This document shows, piece by piece, positions 348 through 29,927 of a DNA stretch of 64,000 nucleotides. A model generated the notes under the pieces. It was not told where the DNA came from, made no database searches, and saw nothing but the letters and a program-made list of their open reading frames with translations. Positions within the stretch are counted from its first letter, which is position 1. Each line of letters opens with the position of its first letter. The stretch spans positions 12,589,501 through 12,653,500 of the forward strand of contig NZ_CP069338.1 in the NCBI RefSeq assembly GCF_016859125.1, in the 5' to 3' direction. This DNA is from Archangium violaceum (GTDB lineage: Bacteria; Myxococcota; Myxococcia; Myxococcales; Myxococcaceae). Both the position numbers and the translations under genes were made by a program.

Positions 348-3149
<2,802 letters not shown>

Positions 3150-3161
3150 GGAGGACACACC

Positions 3162-5295: not shown

Positions 5296-5308
5296 AGGGG
5301 CCTCCCCC

Positions 5309-5887: not shown

Positions 5888-5898
5888 GGAGGCCCGCC

Positions 5899-6573
5899 AT
5901 GGCGCTGCCCATCTGCCTGCACATTCCCGAGGCCCCCGAGCCCTTGGCTGTAACCCTGCCAGGAGGCATCACCCTCCAGCAGCAGGAACTGCTCAAGGCC
6001 ATCCAGCCGGCGCTCACGCCGCTCATGCCCCTCTTCGACATCGTCGATGCTGTCATTGCGGTCTTCGACTGCATCAAGGCCATCCCCGACTCGCTCGGGC
6101 CGCCACCAGACCCCTCCGCACTCGTCGCCAGCATCTCGAAGTTGGCAGAGAAGGTGATGAAGCTGCTCAGGCTCATCCCCCAGCTGTCGCTCCCCTACAC
6201 CATCATCGGCACCATCGATCTCATCCTCGACACGCTCCAGAAGGCGCGCGGCCAACTGCTCCACCTCCTACAGCGGATGCAGCAGATCCAGGGCGCCATC
6301 GACAAGGCAGGACAGCTCGGCGATCCGGGGCTCCTGGCCATTGCTGGCTGCGCACAGGCGAACGTGGCTCAGGAGGCTGCCAACACCGGCAAGGCGCTCG
6401 CGAGTCTCAGCAAGCTCGTGGCCCTGCTCAACATCTTCCTCGGCATGGTGGGAGCGCCTGAGGTGCCCGACCTGACCAGCCTCTCGGGCCGCCCGCTGAA
6501 CGAGGCCATTGCCCCACTAGATGCGATCGTGGAGGCGCTCCAGGCTGTGCGCCGGGCCGTGCCGCTGCCGTGA
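5899..6573 (+). CDS. Helical protein of the tail cluster, function unknown
   Basis: A 224-residue, strongly alpha-helical, Leu/Ala/Ile/Pro-rich protein. The ATG at 5899 has a GAGGAGG site 6-7 bases upstream; a TTG at 5884 would overlap that site and is less likely. The middle (residues 35-170) is amphipathic helix after helix with hydrophobic patches but no confident membrane segment. I do not recognise a family. Its fixed place between the spike and gp25 suggests a tail tip or spike-loading role, but that is inference only. Confidence 0.6.
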   Translation: MALPICLHIPEAPEPLAVTLPGGITLQQQELLKAIQPALTPLMPLFDIVDAVIAVFDCIKAIPDSLGPPPDPSALVASISKLAEKVMKLLRLIPQLSLPYTIIGTIDLILDTLQKARGQLLHLLQRMQQIQGAIDKAGQLGDPGLLAIAGCAQANVAQEAANTGKALASLSKLVALLNIFLGMVGAPEVPDLTSLSGRPLNEAIAPLDAIVEALQAVRRAVPLP

Positions 6574-6583
6574 GGAAGAACCC

Positions 6584-6964
6584 GTGAGCCGCAAGCCACA
6601 GAACCTCCTCGTCCCCTTCCGGAGGGACAAGAAGCGGGACTTTGCCGCGGGCTCGGGCCCGGAGTTGCTCGCCTCCAAGGTGCGACAGGCGCTACTCACA
6701 GAGGGGGCGACGGCGCGCTCCTCCGGCGAGCTGCCCTGGCGCACGAACTTCGGCGCCGCGCTGCCGCTCCTGCGCCACCAGCGCAACGACGCTCCTCTCC
6801 AGGAATTGGCCCGCGTCTACGTCCGCGACGTCCTCGAGCGCTGGGTACCGGGGGCTCAGGTGGTGAGCCTCGACATGAAGCAGGAGGGAATCGTGCTCAC
6901 CCTCCGGCTCCGTGTGCGCGAGCAGGACGTGGCCGCGACTGTGGACGTGGCCCTGCCTCGCTGA
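6584..6964 (+). CDS. Baseplate wedge protein gp25 / gpW family
   Basis: A 126-residue protein. The GTG start at 6584 follows GAGGAAG; the longer in-frame reading would overlap the upstream gene. The family signature is the EPR-like ring contact, here GELPWRTNFGAALPLLRHQ, followed by the ARVYVRDVLERWVPGAQVVS helix and a final [10 protein letters not shown] strand. gp25 proteins nucleate sheath assembly at the baseplate. The last 50 codons recur, diverged, at 7770-7922 (see that entry). Confidence 0.9.
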   Translation: MSRKPQNLLVPFRRDKKRDFAAGSGPELLASKVRQALLTEGATARSSGELPWRTNFGAALPLLRHQRNDAPLQELARVYVRDVLERWVPGAQVVSLDMKQEGIVLTLRLRVREQDVAATVDVALPR

Positions 6965-7035
6965 CGTCCTGGCTTTGCCTCCTTTGGGACGAATTCTTAG
7001 GATGGCTTTCGGACCATTGTCGCAGGGAGGTCACC

Positions 7036-7824
7036 TTGCCCGCACGCCGGCCTTACCGCATCATCGAGAAGAAGGTCGCCAATGCGGCGGGGCAGCCCTC
7101 TGCGAAAGCACGCTTGTACACGGGGGCCTGGCCACTCGACTGGGCTGGCTTCGAGGCAAACTTGTCGAGCGGCGCAGTATGCGGCAGGCACTGGCCCAGG
7201 AACCTGCCGGACAGCCTTCCGGAGGAGCAGGCCCCTGAGACGCGGCCGCTCTGCCGCCACCGACTGCGGTATGTCTGGGACCTCAACAAACCGCTGCTGG
7301 GCGTCATCTCCTGCAACCCCTCGCGGGCCACCCGCCGGGTGCTTGACGAGACCCTTCACGTCACGGTGAACCAAGCCTACCTGTGGGGCTTCGGCGGCAT
7401 CGACCAGTGCAACCTGAGCCCCGTCTACAAGACCGATTCCCATCAGGTCCGCATTACCATGAAGGATCTCCAGGATCGGGGTAATTGGGCGGCCATCACC
7501 TGCGTCCTGTCGAATTCCGCCGTCTGGTTGGCCTGGGGCTCCAGACCACGTGGTTGCACCGACTCCTGCTGCGACGCCTGGAATACAGGCGAAGACTGCG
7601 TCCTGAGCATGGTCTGGGCACGGCAGAACGCGGACGATGAGTTCACCGTCCTGGCCAACCAGGTATTGAAGGGTGACGGATACCGGCCGCCGGGCCACCC
7701 GAGCCCGCGCCGCTTCCCTCGCCATAAACCGCAGCTGCTCTACGAGAAGCCTCTGTTCGTCCGCGTGGCCACGTCTACGTCCGCGACGCCCTCCAGCGCT
7801 GGGTGCCAAGAGCCCAGCTCGTGA
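7036..7824 (+). CDS. DUF1643-domain protein inserted in the tail operon
   Basis: A 262-residue protein beginning at TTG 7036 with a good GGGAGG site. Residues 77-200 match the DUF1643 pattern: RYVWDLNKPLLGVISCNPSR, then a D-x-T near TRRVLDETLHV, with Trp/Cys-rich strands downstream (WNTGEDC). DUF1643 proteins are often cargo of phages and plasmids and their function is unknown. The last 18 or so residues are read out of frame through the duplicated gp25 sequence, so the natural C-terminus has probably been altered. Codon use and Cys content differ from the flanking tail genes, consistent with late acquisition. Confidence 0.65.
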   Translation: MPARRPYRIIEKKVANAAGQPSAKARLYTGAWPLDWAGFEANLSSGAVCGRHWPRNLPDSLPEEQAPETRPLCRHRLRYVWDLNKPLLGVISCNPSRATRRVLDETLHVTVNQAYLWGFGGIDQCNLSPVYKTDSHQVRITMKDLQDRGNWAAITCVLSNSAVWLAWGSRPRGCTDSCCDAWNTGEDCVLSMVWARQNADDEFTVLANQVLKGDGYRPPGHPSPRRFPRHKPQLLYEKPLFVRVATSTSATPSSAGCQEPSS

Positions 7825-7922
7825 GCCTCGACGTGGAGCAGGAGGGAGCCGCGAGCACCCTACGGCTCCGGGTGCGCGAGCAAGACGTCTCCGCGAGCGT
7901 GGACGTGCCCCTGCCTCGCTGA
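7766..7922 (+). pseudogene. Duplicated 3' end of the gp25 gene
   Basis: From 7770 to the TGA at 7920-7922 the sequence encodes 50 residues in the same order as the last 50 of the gp25 gene at 6584-6964; 37 of 50 are identical by eye. Shared pieces include VYVRD, RWVP, VSLD, QEG and [10 protein letters not shown], both ending in LPR and a stop. Similarity starts near TGGCC at 7766 and fades just after the stop. It has no start codon of its own. The copy lies immediately before gpJ, where gp25 would end in an uninterrupted operon, so the DUF1643 gene sits between two gp25 tails. Confidence 0.85.
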
Positions 7923-7983
7923 GCCCCTGGCGTCCCCGGGCTGCGGAGGGCCTCGACTTTGCCATCCCGGAGGCTCCTGCGCC

Positions 7984-9495
7984 GTGGCCATGCTCCCCGA
8001 GCCCGTCGACTACACCGACAAGGACTTCGATGCCCTGCGGGCACGGCTCATCTCCCTCCTTCAGAGTGTCTTCCCCGACTGGACGGACTTCGCCGTCGCC
8101 AGCTTCGGCAACGTGCTCCTGGAGATGTACGCCTTCGTCGGCGACGTGCTGACCTTCTACCAGGACAACCTGGCGCGCGAGTCACGGCTCGTCACCGCCA
8201 CGCAGCGCAAGAACGTCATGGCACTCGCGCGGATGCTGGGCTACCGGCTCCACGGAGCCCAGGCCGCGACCGCCCAAGTGGAACTTCAGCTCGCACGGCC
8301 CCCCGCTGCCCCCGTCACTTTTCCCGCGGGTACCCTCATTCGCACGCAGGAAGTCACCGAGCCCATCCGCTTCCAGCTCCTCGCCCCCGTTACTCTGCCG
8401 GCAGGGCTCACCCCACCGCGCGTGCTTGCTCTCGCAGAGCACTCGAAGATGTACACGCAGCTCTTCGACTCGCGAGGGCTGGCGGACCTCGAGGTGCACC
8501 TCGACTTCACCCCCTACCTCGACGGCTCCGCCCGCGTGACGACTCCACAGGGGACCTTCTCCGAGGTGGAGAGTTTCCTCGACTCACGTCCCAGTGACTT
8601 GCACTTCGTCGTGAGCGTGGACCAGAACGATCGCGCCACCCTTCGCTTCGGCAACGGCGTGAGCGGCATGCCTCCCAGCGGTACCATCACCATCACCTAC
8701 AAAACAGGCGGTGGGAGCGCCGGCAACGTCGACGCCGAGCGCCTCGTCGTCATCGAGGGCGCCTTCAAGGACGCCCACGGCAACCCAGTGCAGGTTTCGG
8801 TTCGCAACCCTGCCTCGGCTTCGGGCGGCTCGGATAGGCAGACGGTGGCCTCTGCCAAGCTACTCGCCCCCGAAAGCCTCCGGGCCCTCACGCGCTCCGT
8901 GGCGCGCGAGGACTTTGAGCTCAACGCCCGCCGCCTGCCAGGCGTCGCCAGGGCGCTCATGCTCACCTCGAACGAGGACCCGAGCATCTCCGAGAACTCG
9001 GGCATCCTCTACGTCATCCCCAAGGGTGGCGGGCTGCCTACGCCAGCGCTCAAGAACCAAGTCCTCCGGCAAGTCACGGAGGTCTACCCCTGCACCCTCA
9101 CGTTCCAGGTGAGCGTGCAGGCCCCGGTCTACAGGCCCATCGCCATTGACGCGCGCCTCTTCCTTCGGCAGGGCTCCTCGGCTGCTGAGGTGAGGGATCG
9201 CATCCGCGAGCGCCTTGCCGCCTACTTCCGCGTGAGCGAGCCGGACGGCACACCCAACCCTCGCGTGGACTTCGGCTTCAACCTCAAGGACGCCGAGGGC
9301 AACCCGGTGGGCGAGGTGGCCTGGTCGGACATCTTCGATGTCATCCGCGACACGCCAGGTGTGCGGAAGATGGGCTCTGCGCGCCTGGATCTGACGCTCA
9401 ACGGGCTACCCGCCGACGTGAAGCTCAGCGTGCGCGAGTTCCCCGTGCTGGCCAATGTCACCCTGCGAAACGGCGACACGGGGGAGTTGCTTTGA
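7984..9495 (+). CDS. Baseplate J / gp47-like wedge protein
   Basis: A 503-residue protein of the baseplate J family (P2 gpJ, Mu gp47, T4 gp6), which builds the wedge ring. The N-terminus ([19 protein letters not shown], then [18 protein letters not shown]) is the recognition motif, followed by the [12 protein letters not shown] segment. The central beta domain contains [19 protein letters not shown], and the C-terminal half has [20 protein letters not shown], typical of the J core. GTG 7984 is used, with GGAGG about 11 bases upstream. The stop overlaps the next start (TTGATG). Confidence 0.92.
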
Positions 9496-19164: not shown

Positions 19165-21033
19165 ATGGCGATAGTCAGCCCACCGATCGCAGAGATCGAG
19201 AATCTGCGTCCCCCCTTGAACGGTGGCGAACGCAGGGTGCTCGACGCCCTCCTGACGCTCGACGACGGATGGCGCATCTACGCCCAGCCGCGCTTGATGA
19301 TGGATCAGCCTGACTTCGTGGTCGTCCACGAGCGGTTCGGGGTGTGCGTCATCGAGGTGAAGCATTGGGCCGAGGGCCTGTACAGGCAACGGCAGGACGG
19401 GGCCATCGAGGTTCGGGAAGTGAACGAATGGCAGCGGACGAACGAGCGCCCCTGCTGGCAGGCACATCGATACCGCAAGACCATCATCGAGCACTTCTTC
19501 TCGCCGCCCGAGGCGAGCACCGAGGACTGGCCCATCGTGCGGGCGATCGTGGTTCTGCCGAACCACTCAACAACGGATGCGCAACGACTGCTGGCGCTCC
19601 CGCATGTTTCCAAGGATTCCGAGAAGTGGATCCGGGTGTGGGGGCGAGAGTGCCTTGACGACAGGCTTCTGGAGTCACTGACGGGTAGCCGTCGCCCACA
19701 GGATCGGCATCCTGACCCGGCTCGCTTGCACCGGCTCGCGTATCACTTGTCGGAGCCCGAGGTGGTCGCCGATCAGCGTAGACCCCTCGAATTGAGCGAT
19801 GCGGCGCGGAACCTCGCTCGGAATCCGAACCGCGCGAGGATCCGACGAGCGAGAGGTCCCGCAGGGAGCGGAAAGTCGTTGGGCCTCGCCGCTCGCGCTG
19901 CGCTCCTCGCGGCTGACGGACAGCGGGTACTCGTGCTCTCGTTCAACATCACGCTGCCACACTATCTGCACGACCTGGCTGCCCGGCACGGAGCGGAGCT
20001 TGGTAGCAAGATCCGCAACATCACGTTCACTCACTTTCACGGGTTCTGCGCTCGAGTTCGTGACGAGGGATCCGGAGCAAGAGTTCTACAGCCACTCGAT
20101 GGCGATCAGAGCGCCGATGAGGCCGACGCCGACCGCTGCGAACACTTGATTGACGACGCCATCGCTACGTACGTTGCTGGCGTCGGCGAGCGCTATGACG
20201 CCATACTCGTAGACGAGGGGCAGGACTTCAAAGCGAGATGGTGGAACTTCCTGCGGAACTACGTCCGGAAGCCGGATGGCGAGATGCTACTCGTCGCCGA
20301 CACGACGCAGGACCTGTATGACCGAAGCGCCTGGACAGCCGAAGACACCATGAAAGGCTGCGGATTCAACGGCGACTGGACGGATCTAAAGGGCTCGTAT
20401 CGACTACCGCCAGACTTGACGCCCATCATTTCGGCGTTCGGTGACCGTTACCTCAGCGATGGCGCATTCGACCCTCCTGCTGTTCCTGACGATCATCCGA
20501 TGCGAAAAGAAGCGGCCGAGCCCACGACGCGGCGATGGATCAACGTAGACAATCCGCACCGTCTCGGCGTGCTGCTCGCAGAGGGTGTCATCGAACTCGT
20601 TCGCGAGGGCGAACTTCGTACCCCCGACATCGCCTTCCTTTGTGAAGAGCATGCTCACGGTCTCGAAGCTGCCGAGCGGATCGCCGCGTCCGGCATTCAT
20701 GTCACCCATGTGTTCACGGATGAGGACGGTGAGGAGCGACGTCGTCGCAAGCACCGGTTCTGGGGCGGCGCCGACGGCGTGAAGGGCTGCACGATACACA
20801 GCTTCAAGGGCTGGGAGGCGTGCGGTGTGCTGTTGTGCATCCTCCCCACAGCGCGCTCCAGGCGCCTCGCATTCGTTGCCCTCACGCGGGTGAAGGGATT
20901 GCCCAAGGGGCGCCCGGCCGTCGTTCAGGTGTTCAACTGCGACCCAGCGCTGAATGACTTCAAGGCCATCTTTGAACGCGAGTTCTCTGTCGCGGAAGTC
21001 CCCGCACTAGGCGGGCAACGTCGCCTATTCTAA
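19165..21033 (+). CDS. NERD-domain superfamily 1 (UvrD-like) helicase
   Basis: A 622-residue protein. Residues 15-125 form a NERD nuclease-related domain with the core PDFVVVHERFGVCVIEVKHW, which holds the PD...(E)xK residues. Residues 229-236 are Walker A (GPAGSGKS), followed by LVLSFN (motif Ia) and Walker B near 345 (LVDEGQD). Later motifs include GSYRLPPDL, TIHSFKGWEA and VALTRVKG, as in UvrD/Rep helicases. ATG 19165 has AAGGGGGA upstream. It is a lone gene flanked by transposase remnants. NERD-helicases occur as components of defence or repair islands, so a role in restricting foreign DNA is plausible but inferred. Confidence 0.85.
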   Translation: MAIVSPPIAEIENLRPPLNGGERRVLDALLTLDDGWRIYAQPRLMMDQPDFVVVHERFGVCVIEVKHWAEGLYRQRQDGAIEVREVNEWQRTNERPCWQAHRYRKTIIEHFFSPPEASTEDWPIVRAIVVLPNHSTTDAQRLLALPHVSKDSEKWIRVWGRECLDDRLLESLTGSRRPQDRHPDPARLHRLAYHLSEPEVVADQRRPLELSDAARNLARNPNRARIRRARGPAGSGKSLGLAARAALLAADGQRVLVLSFNITLPHYLHDLAARHGAELGSKIRNITFTHFHGFCARVRDEGSGARVLQPLDGDQSADEADADRCEHLIDDAIATYVAGVGERYDAILVDEGQDFKARWWNFLRNYVRKPDGEMLLVADTTQDLYDRSAWTAEDTMKGCGFNGDWTDLKGSYRLPPDLTPIISAFGDRYLSDGAFDPPAVPDDHPMRKEAAEPTTRRWINVDNPHRLGVLLAEGVIELVREGELRTPDIAFLCEEHAHGLEAAERIAASGIHVTHVFTDEDGEERRRRKHRFWGGADGVKGCTIHSFKGWEACGVLLCILPTARSRRLAFVALTRVKGLPKGRPAVVQVFNCDPALNDFKAIFEREFSVAEVPALGGQRRLF

Positions 21034-21278
21034 TAGCACCAAACGCGCTACGAGCCCTCGGAGGGTTCACCTGGAGGTTCCGCCCGAGGGAGGGAGTCGA
21101 GGGCGTAGAGGAGGAGGCACTCTCTGAGCCAGGGGATCCGGATCCTCTGAGCGTTGAGGTGAAGGTATCCGCTGCACGGACCCCGTCTGGCATGAGCTTG
21201 GTGAGCCGCGCAGAGTGGGGCGATGGGGGCGATGGACGAGAGGCCCTCACCGCCAGTGCTCTCAGGACGATCCGTTCG

Positions 21279-21463
21279 TCGCGGTCTGCTCTTCCGGCAT
21301 CGAGACGAGAGGTGGCGGGATCGTGAGAGGCCCGAGTTCCGCGGAGAGTTGCTGGCTGTCGAGGCGGGCCCGGGTGGTGGCCCAGTAGCGCGGGGCGAGC
21401 TCCAAGTAGCGATCCCAGGGCCAGTGGGCGAGCACGCGGAAGAGATCTCAATGCCAGCTGGCC
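21279..21463 (-). pseudogene. Transposase C-terminal remnant
   Basis: A stop-bounded minus-strand frame of about 62 residues with strongly protein-like content (DLFRVLAHWPWDRYLELAPR, then QLSAELGPLTIPPP). It resembles the C-terminal tails of IS66-type transposases, but the exact family is uncertain. It has no start codon. Confidence 0.35.
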
Positions 21464-21551
21464 CGAGTACAACCGCCTCTATGCTCACCCGTTCACCTGG
21501 TCCTGGACTCGGACCAAGATGCACCGATGGATGGACCGTCACCGTTCCTGA
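21452..21551 (+). pseudogene. IS630-like transposase C-terminal remnant
   Basis: The plus-strand reading NASWPEYNRLYAHPFTWSW followed by TRTKM and a stop matches the end of IS630-type transposases, where a YNxxxAHPFxW(T/K) motif is the last conserved block. Only about 33 codons remain, abutting the minus-strand remnant to the left. The region 21034-21580 is a graveyard of elements. Confidence 0.45.
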
Positions 21552-21580
21552 CTATGTCCAAAAACTTCGTGGACACTCCA

Positions 21581-21913
21581 CTAGAGCCCAGATGGCCCCA
21601 CTGCACCTGCCAGCCCGCTCCTCCGACCCGGCGATGACTTCCTCCTCCGGGCTCGGAATACCGTTGGGATGAGTCCTGAACGGACCACGACGATGACCCT
21701 CATGGCATCCCGCCACAGTCCCCCGGGCACCGAGACGGGCCGCGGTGCGTCACGGCCAATCGCATAGAGGGCCCCTCCTTTCCTCCAGGTCGGCTGCCCA
21801 TAGTGAAGGACGATCTGGATGACCTGGAGGCTGATGCCTCGCTCGGCGGAACGGTGGAGGGCGTGGAGGGTCATCCGAAACAGCCCCACCTGCACCGGAG
21901 ATCGAGTCAACAT
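21581..21913 (-). CDS. DUF4258-domain protein
   Basis: A 110-residue protein; the start may be at 21913 or at the internal start at 21874 (MTLHALH). The DUF4258 pattern is clear: HALHRSAERGISLQVIQIVL, an invariant-looking YAIG strand, then a VIVVVRSGLIPTVFRAR strand. The family is related to RelE/BrnT-like small folds and is often near toxin-antitoxin or mobile loci. It lies 57 bases downstream of the anti-sigma-like gene on the same strand and may be the fourth gene of the CHAT operon. Confidence 0.65.
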   Translation of the reverse strand: MLTRSPVQVGLFRMTLHALHRSAERGISLQVIQIVLHYGQPTWRKGGALYAIGRDAPRPVSVPGGLWRDAMRVIVVVRSGLIPTVFRARRRKSSPGRRSGLAGAVGPSGL

Positions 21914-21970
21914 GAGGCGCTCCCTTGGAATCAGGCCGGACAGTTCCGACGCTGTCCAAGGGAGCGCTCC

Positions 21971-22669
21971 TCAGGTTTGTTTCCTGGGACCGGGGGGGGA
22001 GACGCGCAGGGTGCGCCTCATCGCCGAGCGGTGCGCATCTTCGCCCACCTCTTGGAGCAAGCTCGCAAGCCAGTCCAGACTGGCCACCCCTGGATGGGAC
22101 GGAAGCGGGCGCGTCCTGTCGAAGAGAACGAACAGATCCACTTCGGGTTCCCCCGGATCGAGGTCGAGCCCAGCAAGATGCAATTCCTCGCCGGCCTCGA
22201 AGCGCCGTGTCTCGGTGAGCATCGGGTGGAGCGTCCCGTGAGCATCCAGGACGTAGACCGCCACATGGCTGGACTCTCCCAGGCGCACCCTCACATCGAT
22301 TGTCTTCGTGGGGTCGACGAGGAGGGTAAGCTCGACCTCGGAAGCGGAAGCACGCCCTCCCAGCGGAGTGAGCGCAGCCGGCCTCTCGCTCAGCGATTGA
22401 CTGATCCGCATCCCATGCGCCGTAAGCTTGTGGCGAAGCTTCGACCAGTGCCAATCGAGCCGGGCCCTGAGTGGACGGGCCACCCAACGGGCCAGCCGTT
22501 CCTCCTGACGTTGGCGCTCGGACAGAAGCGCCTCGTAGACGCGGAGCACTTCCTCATCCGCATACGCCACCATCCAGCGACGCACGGCCGCACTCTCCTC
22601 TGGAGACAGCTCACCGTGAACGTAGGCCCTGAGGGTATCGATGTCCGGCGGGATCCAGTTCATGTTCAC
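21971..22669 (-). CDS. Anti-sigma-like protein of the CHAT operon
   Basis: A 232-residue protein from GTG 22669, overlapping the upstream stop by 4 bases (ATG 22663 is an alternative). The N-terminus DTLRAYVHGELSPEESAAVR has the shape of zinc-type anti-sigma domains but lacks their His/Cys ligands. A helical segment rich in Arg/Glu follows. Residues 110-200 contain beta strands like VRVRLGESSHVAVYVLDAHG, resembling DUF4384-like modules. No membrane helix is evident, so it would act in the cytoplasm. Pairing with the sigma-like gene suggests partner control. The name is by resemblance only. Confidence 0.5.
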   Translation of the reverse strand: MNMNWIPPDIDTLRAYVHGELSPEESAAVRRWMVAYADEEVLRVYEALLSERQRQEERLARWVARPLRARLDWHWSKLRHKLTAHGMRISQSLSERPAALTPLGGRASASEVELTLLVDPTKTIDVRVRLGESSHVAVYVLDAHGTLHPMLTETRRFEAGEELHLAGLDLDPGEPEVDLFVLFDRTRPLPSHPGVASLDWLASLLQEVGEDAHRSAMRRTLRVSPPGPRKQT

Positions 22670-23688
22670 TCCTGCTCCTCACGGGCCTGTGTTCCCACCA
22701 GATCCTGCCAGTCCAGCTCGATCTGCTCACGGTGCGCAGGCGGGAGCAGCCGCGCTACCGCCTTCTTCAATGCCGCCCGGAAGACGCCTGCCCACAACCC
22801 TTCCAGCGGGTCGTCTCCCCCATCCGAACGGGCTCGCTCGGCGCTCTGGCAAAGGGCCTCCCGGAAGCCTAGGAGCACCTCGGCCGTGATCGGCAACACG
22901 GGACAGGGGGGCGCCTCATGGAGATCCCGGACAGGCCCCAGGAAGACCTGGTGCACTGATGAGAGCTCCGGATGTCTGGGGAGCAACGCCTCGAGGTTGA
23001 ACCGGAACGCCGCTGCGGTTCCCTTGCGGCTTCGCGCCGTGCGCTCAGGGGGAGAATGACCGGGGACCGAGGTCCTCGCCGTGAGAAGGCTCTTGTCCAC
23101 CTCCTGGAAGCGCACATCCCCCATGCCCATCGCGCGGAGCCACTGAGCCAGACGTCGCCGCGCGATGCAGGTGGCCCACAACCAGTCCGCCTCGATGTCC
23201 GGCAGCCCCGTGCTGATCGAGATGCGCCGGAGGACGTCTGCCCATGCGTCAATGAGTTCCAGCAGGGCCTTCATCCGACGCTTCTGGTCCAGCTGCTCCT
23301 CCATCGCATCTTCGGTGGAGCCTGCGCCCGCTTCGGGCCCTTCCTCGTCCAGTGTCATGAAGGTGGAGGCACGCCGCTGGGCGCTTGCCGCACGCTTCCC
23401 CACCCACCACGTGTACCAGCCTGGCAGGTTCGTCCATGCAGGGGCACGGTCGAGGCGCGGTCGGGTCCGGAGCGAGTCGATGATTCCCTGGGCGATCCAC
23501 TGGCCTGCCTGGAAGTCGTCCCGGCCCGCCGCCCGTGCCTCCGAGGCCCTCAGCCAGTCCTCGTCGTTCACGAGCGCCTCCGTGAAGGCCTCGCTCCAAT
23601 ACGCCAGGAGGACTGGCTCCCATGCCTCCAGGAACGCTGAGCGTCCTTCGGGCGACAGATCTTTCAAGACAGGCAGCCCGGAGTTCAT
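22666..23688 (-). CDS. Sigma-70-like (degenerate) protein of the CHAT operon
   Basis: A 340-residue protein from ATG 23688, overlapping the CHAT gene stop by 4 bases; the upstream start at 23739 would overlap more. Residues about 60-120 resemble sigma region 2: LPGWYTWWVGKRAASAQRR followed by an acidic LDEEGPEAG turn, as after the region 2.4 helix in ECF sigmas. A C-terminal VARLLPPAHREQIELDW helix resembles region 4. A roughly 100-residue segment between them is unlike standard sigma factors. No close family is recognised, so this is a weak structural analogy supported by the anti-sigma-like neighbour. Confidence 0.4.
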   Translation of the reverse strand: MNSGLPVLKDLSPEGRSAFLEAWEPVLLAYWSEAFTEALVNDEDWLRASEARAAGRDDFQAGQWIAQGIIDSLRTRPRLDRAPAWTNLPGWYTWWVGKRAASAQRRASTFMTLDEEGPEAGAGSTEDAMEEQLDQKRRMKALLELIDAWADVLRRISISTGLPDIEADWLWATCIARRRLAQWLRAMGMGDVRFQEVDKSLLTARTSVPGHSPPERTARSRKGTAAAFRFNLEALLPRHPELSSVHQVFLGPVRDLHEAPPCPVLPITAEVLLGFREALCQSAERARSDGGDDPLEGLWAGVFRAALKKAVARLLPPAHREQIELDWQDLVGTQAREEQE

Positions 23689-26600
23689 CCGCGCCAGTCC
23701 TCCAGCGTCCGGAGCATGAGCCGCCAGCCCGCCCAGCACATGGGGCTCCGGTAGAACCGAAGGTAATCGGCGACGAGCTGTTCGGCCTGGGCCTCGGAGA
23801 ACTGCCGCAAGCTCGCCGCGAGGCGCTCAGGGCGAGGCGCCGAGAAGCTCACGAGCCGCCCCGTCGCCCCCTCCAGGGAGGGCCATGCGCGAGGCCCCTG
23901 TCCACTCTGGTTCCCATACCATTCCGCCCGGATGTCGCGGAGACACCGCTCCATCGCCTCCTCCAGGAGTTGGTGGAGTTGGTGGTCGTGCACCACGTGG
24001 GCGCGGCTCCCCCATTCCTTCAAGGTGCTGCCCACCTGGCCGACGACGGCCCGTTCCACCCGCCCGCCTTGCCGGAACAACGTGCGGCACTCGTCGCGCG
24101 CCTTCTGCAGCGCCTCGGCCTCGCCAAGTCCCGTCTCCACCAGCAACGCAAAGCGCTCCATCAGCAGGGCGCCGGGGAGGGTGGGTACGTGCCAGCGCGA
24201 GGCGACCACGCGCCTAGCTCCAGCCAGCAGGAAGGCCGCGGACACGTCCTCTGGCTCCTCGGCAGGCCCGTGATCGGCCAGCGCGCGGCCATGCGAGGCC
24301 CCCTGACAGGCCCACAGCTCGACGCAGTCGACCCCGCTCAGCGGCAGGCGTCGCAGCTCCCGCCCGCGGAGATTGATCCAATCCTCGCGCTGCTCCGCAT
24401 CCACCAGTGTGATGCGGTCTGCCTCCGGGTTGAGCCGATCATGGTGGCCGTGCAGGAACAGCCGGACGCGTCGAGCGGTCCTCAGCTCACGGTACAGGCG
24501 CTGGGCATCCGTCGCCTCTCTGCCTGAGAGCGGCGGGCGCGCACAGCCATGGCTGGCCAGTGACTCCTGCACGGCTCGCGCCACAGCCATCTGCCCACCC
24601 GAGAGCCCATCCCCATGCAGTTGGACGACTCCCTGGCGAGCCTGGGGCTCGGATGCGAAAGGCCCTGGGAGCGGGGCCAGGGTGTGGAGGTGCCCCATGC
24701 GGTAGCGCTCCCCCAGACGCGGTCCCTCCGGCGCGATGCGCAGATCCTCCCAAGAGAGGAAGACCTGCTGGTGGCCACGGTGAAGAATGAGCACGTCGGT
24801 GATGCCATGGCGATCCAGGACTTCCGCGAGCTGCCGCGCCCAGGATGCATAGCCAGAGCACATCCTCTCGAAGACCTGCTCCAGTTCCTGCCAGCTCTGC
24901 GGGCTCCTCTCCTCCAGATCCTTGGCCAGGGCCGAGTAGAGTTCCGACAACGCAGCGGCCCCTGGCGCACGCTCCGAGATGTCGTCGAGGGATCCGATGA
25001 CGTGGCGTTGGAGGCGGCCATCGTGATGGAGGAAGACACTCATCGGCGTGACGATCTCTGGGAACATTCCGGGCACCAGGATGGCCACGCAGGGGTGCGT
25101 CGAGAGGAAGGCGCTCACGCCTTCGGGCGTTGCTCGGGGAGGATGCACTCCGTCCGGGAGGAGTCCCCGCGATGCCAGGTAGTCATGGCACTCGAGCAGC
25201 CGTTGGCGAGCCCGGCCCACGTATTCGCCGATCTCCTCGAGCCCGCTCGGGGACTGCCGCACCACGAGCACCCCATCCTCCCGTCGCTCCCAGCGCTCCC
25301 GAGGTACCCCCGTGATGCGCTCCATGTATTCCATCTCGCTGGGAGAGGCATCGGGTGGGAGAATCGTCACGCGGGAGAACTGCTCCTTCAACAGCTCGGA
25401 GAACATCGCCTGGACGGTCCAGCTCTCCCGGCCCGCCTCGTGAATCATCTTTAGGCGCCCCCAACCATCGAGGTCCGCTCGCGCGCTGTACAGGTTGGAG
25501 AAGATGCTCGAGAGGTCCGTCACCGATACGGCGGAAGCAGTCCTCCGGACGGCGTTGGACATGGAATCCACGTTGTTGGACGTGAAATCCATCCACTGCT
25601 TCGCCTCCCCCTGGCCATAGAAGAGACTCTCCATGCGAAAAGCAGAGGCCCCCGTCAGGTCGAGCAGCGCCAGCACGCGCTCTGGCGCGACGGACGCCAA
25701 GTCGTCCGAAGCGAGACGGACGGAGTGGATCAGGCGCGCCATCCAATCGGAGAGCAGCGTTCGCTCCGAAGCGGAGAGCAGCGGCCACGCGAGTTGCTCG
25801 TTGAGGAAGGACAACCGCTTCTCGACGTAGGTGAGCACCTCTTCGAGTGCTTCCCCTTCGTGCAACGCCCACCCCAGCATCCCGAACTCGCACCCGGCCA
25901 GTTCCAGCAGGCTCTTCACGGGTAGGAAGGGCATGGCCGGCTCGCTGAGACACTCGTTCAGGAGCTTCAACTGGATGCCCGTGAGAGGCAGCTGCGCCTT
26001 GACGAGGATCATCCAAAGGGCGGCCACTGCCTCGTAGAGGCGGACCGGACATGCGAGCGGTCCCGCCGGCCCTCGCTTCGAGGACGCAGTCCAGAGGCTG
26101 CGGGAGGCAAGCGAGAGCGCTTCCAGCAGCCTCTGCACGAAGTCTTCTCCGAGAAGCGGCCGGAGCACGTCTCTCACCCTGTCCCGGATGCGCTGGTCTT
26201 TCTCCCGCGGGGACTCGCCCTGCAGCACCTTGCGAATCACTTCTTCCAGAAAGTCCGCCGCCTGCGCGGCCACTGCACACGCGTGGGTCAACGCTTCCCA
26301 AGGATGTTCACTGGCATTCCGGCATACCAGGAAGGCATGGGCACGGATGGCCAGGAGCGCCTCCTCGATGATGCGCTCCTGCTGTTCCTCCCGCTCTGTC
26401 TCTGGCCCGGCCCGCATGGCGAGGTGCTCCATTCGCATCAGGCCCCCCCAGCAGGTGGACCGGACGAATGCCGCTTCGAGCAGTGCAGCCCATCGCATGG
26501 AGACAGGCTCTGGGAGTGGCAGTTCCCGAACCCACCGGCAGAGCGCACGGCCGAGATCGTACGCCTTCATCTGATACTTGAAGGGCTGCTCCACATCGGA

Positions 26601-27554
26601 GTCCAACTGCGCGAGCCGTTCGAGGCATTCGACGGCACAGACGGCGGAGTGGACCGCGGCCTCCATCTCGCCAGTCTTCACGAAGATCTCGTGCGCCTGG
26701 TGGAAGGCCTGGAAGGCCTGCTCGAAGTTGCGAGTATGCGTCTCCAGGGGGCTCTCCACGAATGCCCGGCCGAGGGCATTCAGGGCCTCGGCGAGCAACC
26801 GGGGCAAGGAGTGGTAGGGCTCGATGACCAGCAGTTCTCCCGCGCGGAACATGCGGCGCACCTTCCGCTCGGGCCGGACCGGCTGCCCCTTCGGGCAGAG
26901 ACCATCCTCCTCGCCGTCATGGGTCTCCTGGATGCGCGCTCGGGTGTCTTCGACGAGCGATTGGAGATCCTCCAGTGCGAAGCCCGACGAGGGCTGGGCC
27001 ACGAGAAAGGCTTCGCAGCGGGCCCCGTTCAACCGCACGACCAGGTCCATGTGCCGGACCTGATCGGACACCGGCTCGAATGCAGCCTTGAGTTGGTCCA
27101 GCACGATCAGGCGAATCCGGTAGTTCAGTTCGCCCTGGAGAGAGAAGGATTCCTCCAGTTCCTGTGCTTCCAGCAGGAGCGAGACCTGAGCACTCGGTGA
27201 GAGCTGCTGGGACTCCCCCGCACGCTGGAGCACCATGACCAGGAACAACAAGCAGAGATGGCTACGGCTCTTGAAGGGAAGAATCGGGTTCGCGTCGAGT
27301 TCCTCGCGAAAGTCACGGAGAGCCTCGATCAACTCGGCCTCAGTGACCGTCGTCTCGGAGAAGAGCAGGTCCACGGCCTGACGAACCACGCCTCCTGTCC
27401 TGGAGAGATTCAGCGAAGCGCCACGCGTGGCCTGGACCAGCGCCTCCATGACGGCGGCGACCACGTTCGATCCTGGTGTCCAGATGATCGCGCTGCGGCG
27501 GCGAATCGCCTCGGCCAAGTGGTGACGAATCGCCTGCTCGATGCCCTGCTCCAT
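23685..27554 (-). CDS. Large CHAT-domain protease
   Basis: A 1289-residue protein. The C-terminal 290 residues are a CHAT (caspase HetF-associated) domain. The catalytic His is in LFLHGHHD (about H1035) and the Cys in ELWACQGA (about C1083), followed by SAAFLLAGARRVVASRWHVP, the diagnostic CHAT strand-loop. The N-terminal roughly 1000 residues are mostly helical, Leu/Glu-rich and without repeats that I can name. They probably form the sensor or scaffold that activates the protease. It heads an operon with sigma-like and anti-sigma-like genes, joined by 4-bp overlaps. By analogy to CHAT effectors that cleave a partner, the downstream proteins may be substrates. Confidence 0.78.
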   Translation of the reverse strand: MEQGIEQAIRHHLAEAIRRRSAIIWTPGSNVVAAVMEALVQATRGASLNLSRTGGVVRQAVDLLFSETTVTEAELIEALRDFREELDANPILPFKSRSHLCLLFLVMVLQRAGESQQLSPSAQVSLLLEAQELEESFSLQGELNYRIRLIVLDQLKAAFEPVSDQVRHMDLVVRLNGARCEAFLVAQPSSGFALEDLQSLVEDTRARIQETHDGEEDGLCPKGQPVRPERKVRRMFRAGELLVIEPYHSLPRLLAEALNALGRAFVESPLETHTRNFEQAFQAFHQAHEIFVKTGEMEAAVHSAVCAVECLERLAQLDSDVEQPFKYQMKAYDLGRALCRWVRELPLPEPVSMRWAALLEAAFVRSTCWGGLMRMEHLAMRAGPETEREEQQERIIEEALLAIRAHAFLVCRNASEHPWEALTHACAVAAQAADFLEEVIRKVLQGESPREKDQRIRDRVRDVLRPLLGEDFVQRLLEALSLASRSLWTASSKRGPAGPLACPVRLYEAVAALWMILVKAQLPLTGIQLKLLNECLSEPAMPFLPVKSLLELAGCEFGMLGWALHEGEALEEVLTYVEKRLSFLNEQLAWPLLSASERTLLSDWMARLIHSVRLASDDLASVAPERVLALLDLTGASAFRMESLFYGQGEAKQWMDFTSNNVDSMSNAVRRTASAVSVTDLSSIFSNLYSARADLDGWGRLKMIHEAGRESWTVQAMFSELLKEQFSRVTILPPDASPSEMEYMERITGVPRERWERREDGVLVVRQSPSGLEEIGEYVGRARQRLLECHDYLASRGLLPDGVHPPRATPEGVSAFLSTHPCVAILVPGMFPEIVTPMSVFLHHDGRLQRHVIGSLDDISERAPGAAALSELYSALAKDLEERSPQSWQELEQVFERMCSGYASWARQLAEVLDRHGITDVLILHRGHQQVFLSWEDLRIAPEGPRLGERYRMGHLHTLAPLPGPFASEPQARQGVVQLHGDGLSGGQMAVARAVQESLASHGCARPPLSGREATDAQRLYRELRTARRVRLFLHGHHDRLNPEADRITLVDAEQREDWINLRGRELRRLPLSGVDCVELWACQGASHGRALADHGPAEEPEDVSAAFLLAGARRVVASRWHVPTLPGALLMERFALLVETGLGEAEALQKARDECRTLFRQGGRVERAVVGQVGSTLKEWGSRAHVVHDHQLHQLLEEAMERCLRDIRAEWYGNQSGQGPRAWPSLEGATGRLVSFSAPRPERLAASLRQFSEAQAEQLVADYLRFYRSPMCWAGWRLMLRTLEDWRG

Positions 27555-28208
27555 GACCCCTCCTGCTTCGATGATCGACCACCAAGGTCAGCGGGCTCGG
27601 ATTTGTTTCCTGGAACAGTCCAGCGATGTGGGCAAGTGTGGCCCCTTCCCTCACAGGTCTTCTGAAGCCTCGAAAAGACTAGTTCGCAAACGGGCGGTCA
27701 TGCCCCTGTTCAGCGGGCCAGCCGCAGAAGTACCTGAAATCACTTGGTGATTCCGGTTGCGTTCTCGGGCCGGAGGCCGCGAACGTGTTCGCAAGTCGCT
27801 CCGAATGGGGAGCTACCTGGGCCAGCACGCGAGCACGCAGGCCCCCGGTTTCAACAGTGGCCCTGAGGAGCAATCCTCGGGGCCGCTGCATTTTTCCCAA
27901 AGAGTTCCGAGCGTTTGCGCACTTGGTGAGCGCACAGTGCGCCTGGACAGCGCTCGCAGAGAGAACGACGCAGAATCGTTCCGGCGGACAGAAATCGCGC
28001 TCTGGACGCTCTTGGCTCTCTGAGCGTTGACCGGCGGCGGAGAAGAATGGAGAGCGTTTAACGGCTCGCCCTCCCCCAGGCTGGACGGGTCGGCTGCTGT
28101 TTAACTGGCCAGCCCCATGACGGCGGCGACGGCAGGCGCTCTCTGCTCTCGTTGCTGGGGAGGAGCGCACGCGAAGCTCGGGGGCTGCCTTCTTCGATGG
28201 AGCCCCCC
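27555..28208 (-). other. Upstream region of the CHAT operon
   Basis: About 650 bases between the CHAT start and the serine recombinase 3' end, with no credible gene. It contains GTTTAAC motifs at 28056-28062 and 28099-28105, the first inside GAGCGTTTAACGGCTC. The operon promoter should lie near 27560-27700, but no clear -35/-10 pair was seen. Confidence 0.45.
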
Positions 28209-29474
28209 TTACGAGGCCGTCTGCTTCTCGCCCTGCGGCATCTCTGCGCGCAGCTTCACGAGCAGGCGCCTCGTCCTCGCTCGCCAGGTCATGGCTTCGA
28301 ACACCTCCGCGAGCGCGCGCCGTCGATTTGCCGGCCACAGCACGTCCCATGTCGAGGCGAGTTGTCGCAGTTGATCCTTCTTCACGGAGGTCCAGTTCCA
28401 CTGCGGGCGGCGCAGCGCCTCGAGCGCCATCGCCTCGACCCGCGCTGCGGCGACCTGTCCGCCGTCGCAGTCCGCCGTGCAGCAGCGGTAGTAGCGCGGT
28501 GCCTTCGTGGCGGTGGCTCTGGTCAGCGACGTGCTCATGGACGTGGTCATTGTCTTGCCGCATCGCTCGCAGACGAGCAGCCCGCGCAGAAGGAACGGAT
28601 CGTCACGCTCGGAAGCCTTTGTGCGCTTCGCGGGCGTGCGGGTCCTTCGGGCGGCGATGGTGGCCTGAACACGCTCGAAGAGTTCGTTCGGCACGAGCGC
28701 CGTGTGCACGGCCGCCGCGCCATCGGGCCGTCGCCCGGCGTACACGGGGTTCCGCAGCAACCGGAGCACGGCCCGCGTCGACCACTCGCCGCGCTTGCCG
28801 CTCTTCGCCGCCAGCCGGAGTGCGTTCGCATTCTTGACGAGGTCCGTCGTCGAGCAGCCGTTCGCGGCCTCCGTGAAGAACCAGCGCACCGTCGCAGCCT
28901 CGCTCTCGACGATGACGAGCTGCTTCGTGCGCGCGTCCGCTGCGTAGCCGAGGGGCACACGACCTGCGGCACGCTCACCGCGGGCCCTGCGCGCCGCACG
29001 AGCGTCGGCGAGACGCTCGCCGATCATGTCGCGCTCCAGCTCGGCGAACGTCGCGAGCAGGTTGAGCTGCAGTCGCGCGAGCGAGCCCGCCTCGGCGTCG
29101 ATGGCCCCGTGCACGACCGTGAGCCCGACGTTGAGCCGCTCGAAGAGCCGCAACAGCAGCGCCCAGTCGGTGAGCCTCCGGGAGAGCCGGTCAAGCCGGT
29201 AGACGATGACGCGCTGGATGTCGCCGTCCTGGATGCGTGCGACCAGCCTCTCGAGGGCGGGACGCTCGACGGAGGCCCCACTGAAGCCCTCGTCATCAAA
29301 GCGCTCGCCGATGGGATACCAGCCGCGCCAAGCCATCGAGCGGATGAACTGGGTGCAAAGGGTGCGCTGCACGGCGCAGGAGGCGAGCGCGGGATCGTCG
29401 CCAGGACGCACCACCGACTGGCGCGTGTACACGGCGCAGCGGATGAGCGGGCGGTCGTCGGTCTTGGCGTCCAA
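28209..29474 (-). CDS. Serine recombinase (resolvase-type N-terminus, zinc ribbon)
   Basis: A 421-residue protein starting at TTG 29474. The resolvase domain has the catalytic Ser in AVYTRQSVV, then DEGFSGASVERPALERL and YRLDRLSRRL. The Recombinase domain follows (VPLGYAAD...AVLRLLRNPVYAGRR), then a Cys4 ribbon (LVCERCGKTM...YRCCTADCDGG) and a short helical tail. It lies 48 bases downstream of the Doc toxin on the same strand and may be co-transcribed. It is shorter than typical phage large serine integrases (450-700), as in many genomic-island recombinases. Confidence 0.9.
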   Translation of the reverse strand: MDAKTDDRPLIRCAVYTRQSVVRPGDDPALASCAVQRTLCTQFIRSMAWRGWYPIGERFDDEGFSGASVERPALERLVARIQDGDIQRVIVYRLDRLSRRLTDWALLLRLFERLNVGLTVVHGAIDAEAGSLARLQLNLLATFAELERDMIGERLADARAARRARGERAAGRVPLGYAADARTKQLVIVESEAATVRWFFTEAANGCSTTDLVKNANALRLAAKSGKRGEWSTRAVLRLLRNPVYAGRRPDGAAAVHTALVPNELFERVQATIAARRTRTPAKRTKASERDDPFLLRGLLVCERCGKTMTTSMSTSLTRATATKAPRYYRCCTADCDGGQVAAARVEAMALEALRRPQWNWTSVKKDQLRQLASTWDVLWPANRRRALAEVFEAMTWRARTRRLLVKLRAEMPQGEKQTAS

Positions 29475-29522
29475 GGCCGTGAAGATATCGCGGCGGACTT
29501 GCGGCCTTCGAGTCCGGGGTGA

Positions 29523-29927
29523 TCACGTCCCTTTCGATTTCGCGATGCGTTCGAGTTCGACGGCAACCGCGGCCTTCTCGATGCGCCCCTCGGCCACGCC
29601 CATGGTCAGCTCGTAGAGGGCCTCGGAAGGATGGTCGATGCTGATGCCGTTCACGTCGAGGAAGACCACGGCTGCGAGCACCCCGGTCCGCTTGTTCCCG
29701 TCCACGAACGGGTGGTTGCTGACGATGTGGAAGAGGTATGCCGCAGCCATCTCGAAGAGCCCACCATGGGCGAACTCGCCACCCAAAGACGCCTGGGGCT
29801 GAGCCACGGCGGACTCCAGGAGCCCGCGATCACGCAAGCCCGCAGCGCCTCCGTAGACCTCGAGCTGGGTCGCGTGGATCTCGATGACGTCTTCGACGTC
29901 GAGGAACTCCGGCTCGTCCGAACTCAC
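29523..29927 (-). CDS. doc: Doc toxin, Fic-fold (death-on-curing)
   Basis: A 134-residue protein. The Fic motif is HPFVDGNKRTG (residues about 72-82) followed by VLAAVVFLDVNG, exactly the Doc arrangement. The N-terminal IHATQLEVYGGAAGLRDRGL is also typical. Doc phosphorylates EF-Tu and blocks translation. Its start overlaps the antitoxin stop by 4 bases. The last residues are Lys-rich. Confidence 0.93.
   Translation of the reverse strand: MSSDEPEFLDVEDVIEIHATQLEVYGGAAGLRDRGLLESAVAQPQASLGGEFAHGGLFEMAAAYLFHIVSNHPFVDGNKRTGVLAAVVFLDVNGISIDHPSEALYELTMGVAEGRIEKAAVAVELERIAKSKGT

Follow-up and report, generated by a model that had tools for sequence, protein, structure and literature searches.

A CHAT protease operon and a DUF4258-like gene share a promoter-like element in Archangium violaceum

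A conserved four-gene locus

The window, the whole stretch of Archangium violaceum DNA analysed here (64,000 nucleotides, contig NZ_CP069338.1), contains three minus-strand genes, CHAT, SIG and ANTI, in which neighbours share 4-bp ATGA/GTGA overlaps. A DUF4258-like gene, D4258, lies 57 bp downstream of ANTI on the same strand. The features of the locus are:

27583..27610, minus strand: P1, GGAAACAA-N15-CCTTG, promoter-like, before the CHAT operon
23685..27554, minus strand: CHAT gene, 1289 aa (Pfam CHAT; 7-member family aligned over its length)
24450..24452, minus strand: His1035 codon, in FLHGHH, predicted catalytic (invariant in 7/7)
24306..24308, minus strand: Cys1083 codon, in ELWAC, predicted catalytic (invariant in 7/7)
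24075..24581, minus strand: CHAT domain match, residues 992-1160 (Pfam PF12770, E 2.6e-16)
22666..23688, minus strand: SIG, 340 aa, predicted all-helical, candidate diverged sigma factor (11-row alignment), directly before the anti-sigma-like gene
21971..22669, minus strand: ANTI, 232 aa, with an anti-sigma-like N-terminus lacking zinc ligands and a C-terminal beta-sandwich domain
22559..22642, minus strand: ANTI anti-sigma-like stretch, residues 10-37 (hhalign to 28 zinc anti-sigma domains)
21957..21984, minus strand: P2, GGAAACAA-N15-CCTTG, promoter-like, before D4258
21914..21969, minus strand: leader hairpin of D4258 (fold z -6.5)
21581..21913, minus strand: D4258, 110 aa, DUF4258-like (Pfam match below cut-off; family in print as part of the BECR-fold toxin superfamily)

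The four-gene set was found again in other Myxococcaceae. Both 4-bp overlaps are kept in all five intact loci, where each start codon is the one overlapping the preceding stop, and the 57-bp gap between ANTI and D4258 recurs in 5/5 loci with that layout, indicating that this set of reading frames did not arise by chance. The three overlapping genes and the DUF4258 gene 57 bases on had been described by an earlier, sequence-only reading, and the three are neighbours in the homologues too, so that the operon it described is conserved. SIG is present in 6 of 195 genomes of the phylum, with strong ANTI matches in the same six; in each genome these searches scored only a capped set of initial candidates (10 for SIG and 14 for ANTI, for instance), so a distant relative can have escaped. 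Two loci, L036 and L037, are broken or partial copies, and in Corallococcus llansteffanensis (L035) D4258 stands before a second CHAT gene, apart from ANTI. The PADLOC 2.0.0 anti-phage catalogue matched none of the four proteins and none of the 7 CHAT homologues.

The CHAT domain scores 60.3 bits, above its curated cut-off of 24, at the end of the large protein, and the His1035/Cys1083 pair is invariant in the 7 aligned homologues, as the same reading had it (His near 1035, Cys near 1083). We take the catalytic role of the two residues from what is known of the CHAT family, and the sequence supports an intact protease. Its long N-terminal region, with no assigned fold, is a candidate sensor. 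CHAT domain matches occur in 75 of the 92 family genomes; to our knowledge, a substrate is known for few CHAT proteases.

The window copy of D4258 reaches 18.9 bits against DUF4258 (PF14076), below the curated cut-off of 25, a weak match for the gene that had been named DUF4258, and the family matches 6/6 homologues at E<=1 (best E 1.3e-4). A PDB sequence search with D4258 returned 3 unrelated matches only (E 1.1-1.6). In an unsystematic look through the gene lists, no antitoxin gene was noticed beside D4258. In the part of PMC11980606 used here, DUF4258 is placed among BECR-fold (RelE/ParE) toxin families, a superfamily of antitoxin-paired toxins. D4258 is thus a probable RelE-superfamily toxin by family membership, and, though first treated as an afterthought, it seems to belong to the circuit proposed below.

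The SIG and ANTI proteins

We compared an alignment of 15 ANTI proteins (the window protein and 14 of 17 search rows, omitting P0027 and P0028, which looked like chance matches or chimeras, and P0015, 99% identical and with no source listed) with 28 zinc anti-sigma domains that come from fusions with CHAT proteases. The N-terminus aligned with an hhalign probability of 83.6 and an E of 8.2e-6 in a one-model search, scoring 37.9 versus 19.8 for the best of 60 column shuffles. The best match falls at the place of residues 10-37 in 15/15 members, the five weakest (3.0 to 5.4 bits) lying under the best of 900 shuffles (7.0). The opening is also 45% identical over 47 aa (E 8e-7) to a zinc-less protein of another family, in locus L178, whose gene is flanked by a sigma gene with Pfam support and by one read as caspase-like. 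At E<=1, zf-HC2 matches 8/15 members (best 0.0033; window copy below cut-off), and DUF4384 weakly matches 4/15. The zinc-ligand motif HxxxCxxC occurs in 0/15 homologues, and some class I anti-sigma members are likewise without these ligands. In the structural model, four helices span residues 10-78, in a block of pLDDT 82-89 over 11-80, while the fold-search rows mostly covered the beta domain. Judged by these sequence comparisons, the opening of ANTI is related to anti-sigma domains despite having no zinc site, which bears out its description as anti-sigma-like without zinc ligands.

The same does not hold for the sigma region-2-like and region-4-like stretches that had been ascribed to SIG. 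The SIG alignment (11 rows, some near-identical) combines the window protein, 7 of 9 search rows and three loci, and omits P0003 (the window protein) and P0006 (a broken A. lipolyticum contig). A Pfam sigma family was found in 0/11 homologues at E<=1, Pfam gave no DNA-binding helix-turn-helix in SIG, and TIGR02937 (NCBIfam), whose cut-off is 42.9 bits, matched 1/11 with a score of 17.5. When the SIG profile was compared with 31-33 sigma factors, scores were no better than those of reversed or shuffled controls, reversed SIG outscoring SIG in two of these comparisons; the best alignment, at chance level, pairs columns 62-97 with sigma positions 31-66, where region 2 would be. The AlphaFold model is all-helical at low confidence (pLDDT 46.5), with no Foldseek fold match. 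Sigma identity was thus sought with Pfam, NCBIfam, a custom ECF HMM (with reversed and shuffled controls) and hhalign of whole and split alignments, none of which rose above control, and with BLASTP to the L178 sigma factor, a PDB sequence search, AlphaFold and Foldseek, which gave no signal. Since no sigma signal exceeds control, the by-eye alignment of SIG residues ~55-105 with sigma region 2 is only a lead. The window copies of SIG and ANTI are without a strongly hydrophobic stretch.

The promoter-like element and the D4258 leader

The element GGAAACAA-N15-CCTTG stands in front of both the CHAT operon and D4258 in each of the five whole-set genomes with readable DNA. In the window, the first box of P2 overlies the last codons of ANTI, and its spacer the ANTI stop codon. 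Across 92 family genomes, the exact element occurs at 16 sites, 11 of them at these loci and all of these gene-oriented; the remaining 5 were read as lying inside coding sequence, and a reversed-pattern control gave 2 sites. Its distance to the start codon is 42-43 nt for D4258 (6/6) and, for CHAT, 34 nt in three of the four cases measured and 27 nt in the other. That the element is nearly confined to these loci fits a dedicated sigma-type regulator, its promoter function being predicted from sequence, though the boxes could be bound by some other regulator. A looser form also matches at G000:C1:5214401 (L179) in this genome, a site for which no convincing coding frame was identified, which leaves room for a target of the element beyond the locus.

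The 5' arm of the hairpin overlaps the CCTTG box of P2, and its 3' arm contains the ribosome-binding-like AAGGGAG of D4258 (21920-21926). The hairpin is predicted in 5/5 loci (z -3.3 to -6.5) with the D4258 ribosome site buried, compared with z of -0.2, -0.8, 0.8 and -2.1 for CHAT leaders; pairing is poorer in L035. Three pairs show two-sided changes, among pairs picked after the sequences had been seen, and sliding the comparison by +2 as a control gave three as well. Part of the hairpin could be a side effect of the inherent partial complementarity between CCTTG-type boxes and ribosome sites.

A possible protease switch and its known counterparts

Because the same unusual element precedes both halves of the locus in five genomes, we read the four genes as a self-contained alarm circuit. 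We propose, at about even chances of being right, a CRISPR-free protease switch in which CHAT cleaves ANTI, SIG is freed, and the operon and the toxin-like gene are transcribed. A trigger sensed by the long CHAT N-terminus would activate the protease domain, which would cut ANTI, the soluble inhibitor of anti-sigma type to which SIG would be bound. Once released, SIG would bring RNA polymerase to P1, yielding more of the CHAT-SIG-ANTI operon (amplification), and to P2, turning on the DUF4258 gene, whose probable RelE-superfamily toxin would halt growth. In mRNA reading through from P1, the D4258 ribosome site would be masked by the hairpin, whereas mRNA begun at P2 would be without its 5' arm, so that toxin would be made only with free SIG. 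We infer the trigger, the proteolysis of ANTI, the sigma role of SIG, the function of the promoters and the toxicity of D4258; ANTI is the likely CHAT substrate, but CHAT could cut SIG or D4258 instead. The earlier interpretation, a sensor protease freeing a transcription factor by cleaving its inhibitor, keeps its intact CHAT protease, anti-sigma-type partner and conserved operon, and gains the element, but not SIG as a recognised sigma factor (no signal, pLDDT 46.5). A more specific version, which we judge less likely than not, is a CRISPR-free alarm in which SIG is too diverged to be recognised, the regulon is essentially its own locus, and the P2 box lies in a toxin-locking hairpin. With the downstream box inside the hairpin, read-through mRNA would be untranslatable and toxin would appear only on true activation.

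It is less likely, in our estimate, that SIG is instead an adaptor or CHAT-binding partner, with the elements read by something else (a repressor, or a sigma factor that is either housekeeping-type or an unlinked ECF) and CHAT cutting SIG or D4258 directly. The failure of every profile test to give SIG a sigma signal speaks for such a role, as do the many ECF-like genes per family genome (up to 33 matches) that could read a GGAAAC-type box. However, the concentration of exact sites at these loci (11/16 in 92 genomes) suits a locus-encoded factor, and SIG lies directly before an anti-sigma-type gene, as sigma genes do in the L160 and L178 operons. An abortive-infection or toxin module, in which ANTI is the antitoxin of D4258 and is degraded by CHAT upon infection, with a lesser role for transcription control, is improbable. 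DUF4258 superfamily toxins are antitoxin-paired (PMC11980606, in part), no other candidate was noticed beside D4258 in the unsystematic gene lists, and the leader hairpin implies tight control; yet D4258 stands away from ANTI, before the second CHAT gene, in L035, and ANTI has an anti-sigma-like opening and matched no antitoxin family. Finally, it is very improbable that the elements are traces of recombination or insertion, as short direct repeats at the edges of a mobile cassette would be. In favour of this reading, the two copies in the window flank the three genes in direct orientation, the locus has a patchy distribution (6/195 genomes) with broken or partial copies (L036, L037), and the 36 bases upstream of P1 and P2 are identical at 18/36. 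Against it, the two boxes keep an exact 15-bp spacer, paired sites are mostly dissimilar outside the boxes and so form no long repeat, the two L035 copies point away from each other, each toward the gene it precedes, and the distance to start codons is fixed (42-43 nt for D4258 in 6/6).

Under the protease-switch reading, the locus is a small circuit open to testing, in which ANTI is the likely substrate, P1 and P2 are the output sites and DUF4258 is the effector. If that reading is true, the locus would show protease-sigma signalling in the style of type III-E operating in the absence of CRISPR, and a way of locking a toxin in which its promoter sits within a ribosome-site hairpin.

In CRISPR type III-E, Csx29, a TPR-CHAT protease, cuts Csx30 and lifts the inhibition of CASP-sigma, and autoregulated sites in the CASP locus were inferred by the authors (PMC10028731, in the portion cited). 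Both loci bring together a CHAT protease, an inhibitor and a sigma or SIG gene. They differ in that Csx30 is numbered to residue 565 in that portion, whereas ANTI has 232 aa and an anti-sigma-type opening, and in that SIG is not recognisable as a sigma factor; the window also has a DUF4258-like gene under the same element. The sequence-only reading had seen no CRISPR here, and the 5 families of direct repeats in the window (at least 20 bp, within 120 bp) include none that is array-like. A CHAT profile against PDB sequences at E<=10 gave one weak unrelated match and no CHAT protease, in a copy that may not contain Csx29. With no array and no CHAT protease among the PDB sequences, type III-E membership was set aside.

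Further counterparts lie in this genome. In L056, an ECF gene adjoins a zf-HC2-TM-TPR-CHAT fusion, an arrangement found in 28 of 30 loci fetched; sigma, anti-sigma domain and CHAT are coupled as in the window, but there the last two form one membrane-type protein with zinc ligands beside a canonical sigma, where the window has three proteins. Searching this genome for DUF4384 turned up a single match, which led to L160, a three-gene set of ECF, anti-sigma-DUF4384 and caspase-like genes. Its ECF gene shares a 4-bp overlap with the anti-sigma gene, as neighbours in the window do, and its anti-sigma carries a C-terminal DUF4384; it differs in gene order (sigma, anti-sigma, protease), in zinc-type ligands and a TM segment, both read from sequence, and in a protease that is caspase-like by motif reading, not CHAT (Pfam gave only a weak Peptidase_C13 match, E 0.017). 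ECF54 sigma factors, likened here by description only, have CHAT and other protease genes nearby and proteolytic control proposed (PMC8999054, in part); they are canonical ECFs proposed to act without an anti-sigma factor, whereas the window has ANTI. Compared with RelE-ParE superfamily toxins, D4258 is DUF4258-like, yet tied to a protease operon by a common promoter-like element. CHAT-sigma coupling is therefore not new, and to have called the locus a new arrangement was too strong, since CHAT beside sigma or anti-sigma parts recurs in the family. What is new is that one element, GGAAACAA-N15-CCTTG, precedes the CHAT operon and recurs ahead of the DUF4258 gene.

Layout and distribution of the four-gene set

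The window (bases 12589501-12653500) belongs to a genome that is a single contig of 12.68 Mb. CHAT, SIG and ANTI, which encode a CHAT-domain protein, a candidate diverged sigma factor and an anti-sigma-like protein, occupy the positions and strand assigned by the sequence-only reading, with 4-bp overlaps at both junctions, and the DUF4258-like gene was likewise borne out.

Genes of the set (window coordinates)
23685-27554, minus strand: CHAT
22666-23688, minus strand: SIG, 340 aa; a longer GTG frame exists too
21971-22669, minus strand: ANTI
21581-21913, minus strand: DUF4258-like gene, 57 bp past ANTI

The three genes are neighbours elsewhere too, with four further loci carrying the complete four-gene set.

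Related loci
L032, Myxococcaceae MAG: complete four-gene set
L033, Cystobacter fuscus DSM 2262: complete four-gene set
L034, Stigmatella erecta: complete four-gene set
L035, Corallococcus llansteffanensis: complete set; two divergent CHAT genes, DUF4258 before the second
L037, Archangium lipolyticum: CHAT remnant and broken SIG; ANTI and DUF4258 frames intact

Among 96 genomes searched, CHAT relatives that are full-length or nearly so were found in 4 others, one of them with two copies; in addition, G035 has a partial copy and G004 a remnant. Named relatives with the set or parts of it are A. lipolyticum, of the same genus, C. fuscus, S. erecta and C. llansteffanensis; a protein search also returned a CHAT relative from Corallococcus aberystwythensis, in which one 54,896-base contig encodes the CHAT, SIG and ANTI proteins alike. 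Profile searches across 195 genomes of the phylum, scoring 10 (SIG) or 14 (ANTI) candidates per genome, detected SIG in 6 genomes; ANTI was detected in those 6 as well, and one further match to it was weak and distant. Both 4-bp overlaps are present in 5/5 intact loci, when whichever start codon overlaps the preceding stop is used. In all five loci with DUF4258 after ANTI, 57 bp separate the two genes. The set is patchy, its surroundings differ among the loci read and it is decayed in places, suggesting that genomes probably acquire and lose it easily. The MAG locus also encodes, 3' of the set (L032:7556-13777), a metallophosphoesterase and a trypsin-nSTAND1 protein of 1582 aa.

In the window, the set is convergent with a gene for a NERD and UvrD-helicase protein (19165-21033, plus strand; PADLOC C3a187, E 2.2e-79), and a large serine recombinase gene (28209-29927, minus strand) adjoins a Fic/Doc-family gene. 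With the NERD-UvrD gene and recombinases nearby, a defence setting is plausible rather than proven. Further away lie tail-like genes with PhageMin_Tail and Baseplate_J matches (348-9495, plus strand), which may form the tail cluster of an injection system or a prophage, and a region (57857-61689) with a DDE_Tnp_ISAZ013 transposase, a group II intron D1-D4 piece (59376-59516) and a 700-aa serine recombinase.

The CHAT protein and its two partners

The CHAT domain of the window protein exceeds the Pfam cut-off, and the catalytic pair proposed from the sequence, His1035 (FLHGHH) and Cys1083 (ELWAC), is invariant in 7/7 homologues. Residues 1 to ~990 matched no Pfam family at E<=1, and PADLOC assigned no family to any of the four proteins or to the CHAT homologues (0/7).

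ANTI had been described as having an anti-sigma-like opening devoid of zinc ligands, and both parts of this description held. Its opening (LRAYVHGELSPEESAAVRRW...) aligned with the zinc anti-sigma domains found at the start of 28 fusions to CHAT (one-model hhalign search: Prob 83.6, E 8.2e-6), and HxxxCxxC ligands were found in 0/15 members. The real alignment scored 37.9, against 19.8 for the best of 60 column-shuffled alignments. Taken singly, 15/15 members gave their best hit at one common place, reaching 14.5 bits against a shuffle maximum of 7.0 (n=900), with the five weakest, at 3.0 to 5.4 bits, below that maximum. The AlphaFold model (mean pLDDT 76.9) displays four helices in residues 10-78 and a beta-sandwich. 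Weak Pfam matches to DUF4384 (4/15) and zf-HC2 (8/15) were observed among the members, and the S. erecta protein carries the UniRef name DUF4384. The ANTI profile also matched (E 2.8e-4) a zinc-less protein of another myxobacterial family, 45% identical to ANTI across 47 aa. Its gene (L178:4930-8058, G111:C158) lies between a sigma gene, whose Pfam regions 2 and 4 both exceed the cut-off, and a gene whose product appears caspase-like by its motifs, with no caspase match in Pfam.

The sigma region-2-like and region-4-like stretches reported for SIG were not sustained. The alignment (11 rows, some near-identical; mean column identity 62%) contains conserved motifs, LExDWLWAT and RxARxRxGxAAxFRFNxE, and a Pfam sigma family matched 0/11 rows and TIGR02937 1/11, with a score far under the cut-off. 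Against a profile of 31 ECF factors, SIG reached at best 1.3 bits, versus 2.7 for reversed and 3.6 for shuffled sequences. Comparison with 33 factors by hhalign, run on the full alignment and on each of two parts of it, gave Prob 0.2-0.4; column shuffles matched the real score in 13/30 cases for the whole and in 3/30 and 6/30 for the parts, and the reversed alignment outscored the real one in each of the three comparisons. The AlphaFold model of SIG is helical and untrustworthy. Since no sequence signal rises above the controls, what makes SIG a candidate sigma factor is the anti-sigma-type gene that follows it, together with the promoter-like elements.

A shared promoter-like element and a predicted leader hairpin

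An element was spotted by eye in the leaders of the window, L032, L033, L034 and L037, and the remaining loci were tested afterwards. GGAAACAA-N15-CCTTG precedes both CHAT (P1, 27583..27610, minus strand) and DUF4258 (P2, 21957..21984, minus strand) in the window, and both genes in L032, L033 and L034; in L037 it is located before DUF4258. The gap between the diverging CHAT genes of L035 (6280-6470) contains two face-out copies, each toward its own gene, the second CHAT being preceded by DUF4258. We take the GGAAAC first box and 17-bp spacer to be ECF-promoter-like; a standard sigma-70 scan of window 21000-28200 returned no promoter-like site.

Across 92 family genomes, the exact pattern occurs at 16 sites, 11 at set loci and 5 elsewhere, and the backwards-read control pattern at 2. 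The five off-locus sites, one apiece in G000 (the window's own genome), G005, G011, G084 and G085, all read as coding sequence: those of G000 and G005 fall in a 160-161-aa frame conserved between both genomes, that of G011 within a 529-aa frame, and those of G084 and G085 overlie 658- and 659-aa frames on the opposite strand. The looser GGAAACA-N16-CCTTG has four sites in G000: two at the set, the coding one, and one at L179 (G000:C1:5214401-5214428, plus strand), where no convincing coding frame was found and which is therefore a possible third target of the same regulator. The other fetched loci (685,615 partly overlapping bases, leaving out the trio loci and their duplicates) contain 8 sites that differ from the 14-base form at 2 positions, and no site with 0 or 1 mismatch. 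Outside the boxes, the paired sites of a locus share 6-18/36 positions upstream (18/36 being the window's own pair), 3-7/13 in the spacer and 7-12/31 downstream, so they are not two copies of a single long repeat. The distance between the end of CCTTGN and the start codon is 42-43 nt for DUF4258 (6/6, taking GTG 6461 in L035); for CHAT it is 27 or 34 nt (4 measured, taking GTG starts in L032-L034). Where the DNA was read, the first box of P2 encodes the KQ[TSF] C-terminal end (window 21971-21990, minus strand) that terminates 10/15 ANTI proteins and is absent from five homologues of the L035-like type.

The 61-nt DUF4258 leaders are predicted to fold strongly in 5/5 loci (z -6.5, -3.3, -5.5, -6.0 and -4.7), whereas CHAT leaders gave no comparable fold (z -0.2, -0.8, 0.8 and -2.1). 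The 5' arm of the predicted hairpin shares bases with the CCTTG box, and ribosome-binding-like purines lie in the 3' arm. Pairing is found in 91% of cells across 6 sequences, with pairs picked after viewing the sequences, versus 38-56% in slid controls. Two-sided changes affect 3 pairs against a shuffle mean of 1.6, a count reached by 39/500 shuffles and likewise by the +2 slid control; the covariation score was attained by 2/500 shuffles. Because the 5' arm would sit upstream of a start set by P2, P2 mRNA would be free at the DUF4258 ribosome site and P1 read-through mRNA masked. Phage T4 gene e has a comparable hairpin device.

Proposed mechanism and known counterparts

The components, their layout, the shared element and the predicted hairpin are backed by sequence evidence. 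In the mechanism that we propose, CHAT would sense a trigger and cleave ANTI, cleavage would release SIG, SIG would switch on P1 and P2, and the DUF4258 protein would then act; we infer the sensing, the cleavage, the sigma role, toxicity and any phage-defence role. The protein in the window matches DUF4258 weakly; one study counts this family, of unknown function, among 13 BECR-fold toxin families (PMC11980606). No antitoxin candidate adjoining the DUF4258 gene was noticed in a non-systematic reading of gene lists for the window and related loci.

The sequence-only reading held that a sensor protease freeing a transcription factor in this way would be a new arrangement. The device class itself is already known or proposed, with four precedents; a version made of three proteins, whose DUF4258 effector gene carries the same element as the protease operon, was not found described in openly licensed literature. 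In the same genome, a canonical ECF gene abuts a 976-aa zf-HC2-TM-TPR-CHAT fusion (L056:5264-8751, G000:C1:3811000-3822000; zf-HC2 20.8 bits versus a cut-off of 22.2). Fusion relatives occur in 62/92 family genomes, and among 30 fetched loci 28 have an ECF gene directly upstream, 28 have the zinc motif and 27 show a TM-like stretch; of the two loci without ECF, L151 begins at a contig end, and in L144 the frame chosen was antisense, a separate search giving an ECF match just upstream. Also in this genome, an operon encodes an ECF sigma, an anti-sigma-like DUF4384 protein and a protein that looks caspase-like by its motifs (L160:3104-5936, G000:C1:10002500-10011000). CHAT proteolysis has been proposed for ECF54 in a review (PMC8999054). 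Finally, in CRISPR type III-E, Csx30 inhibits CASP-sigma and Csx29 cuts Csx30 (PMC10028731).
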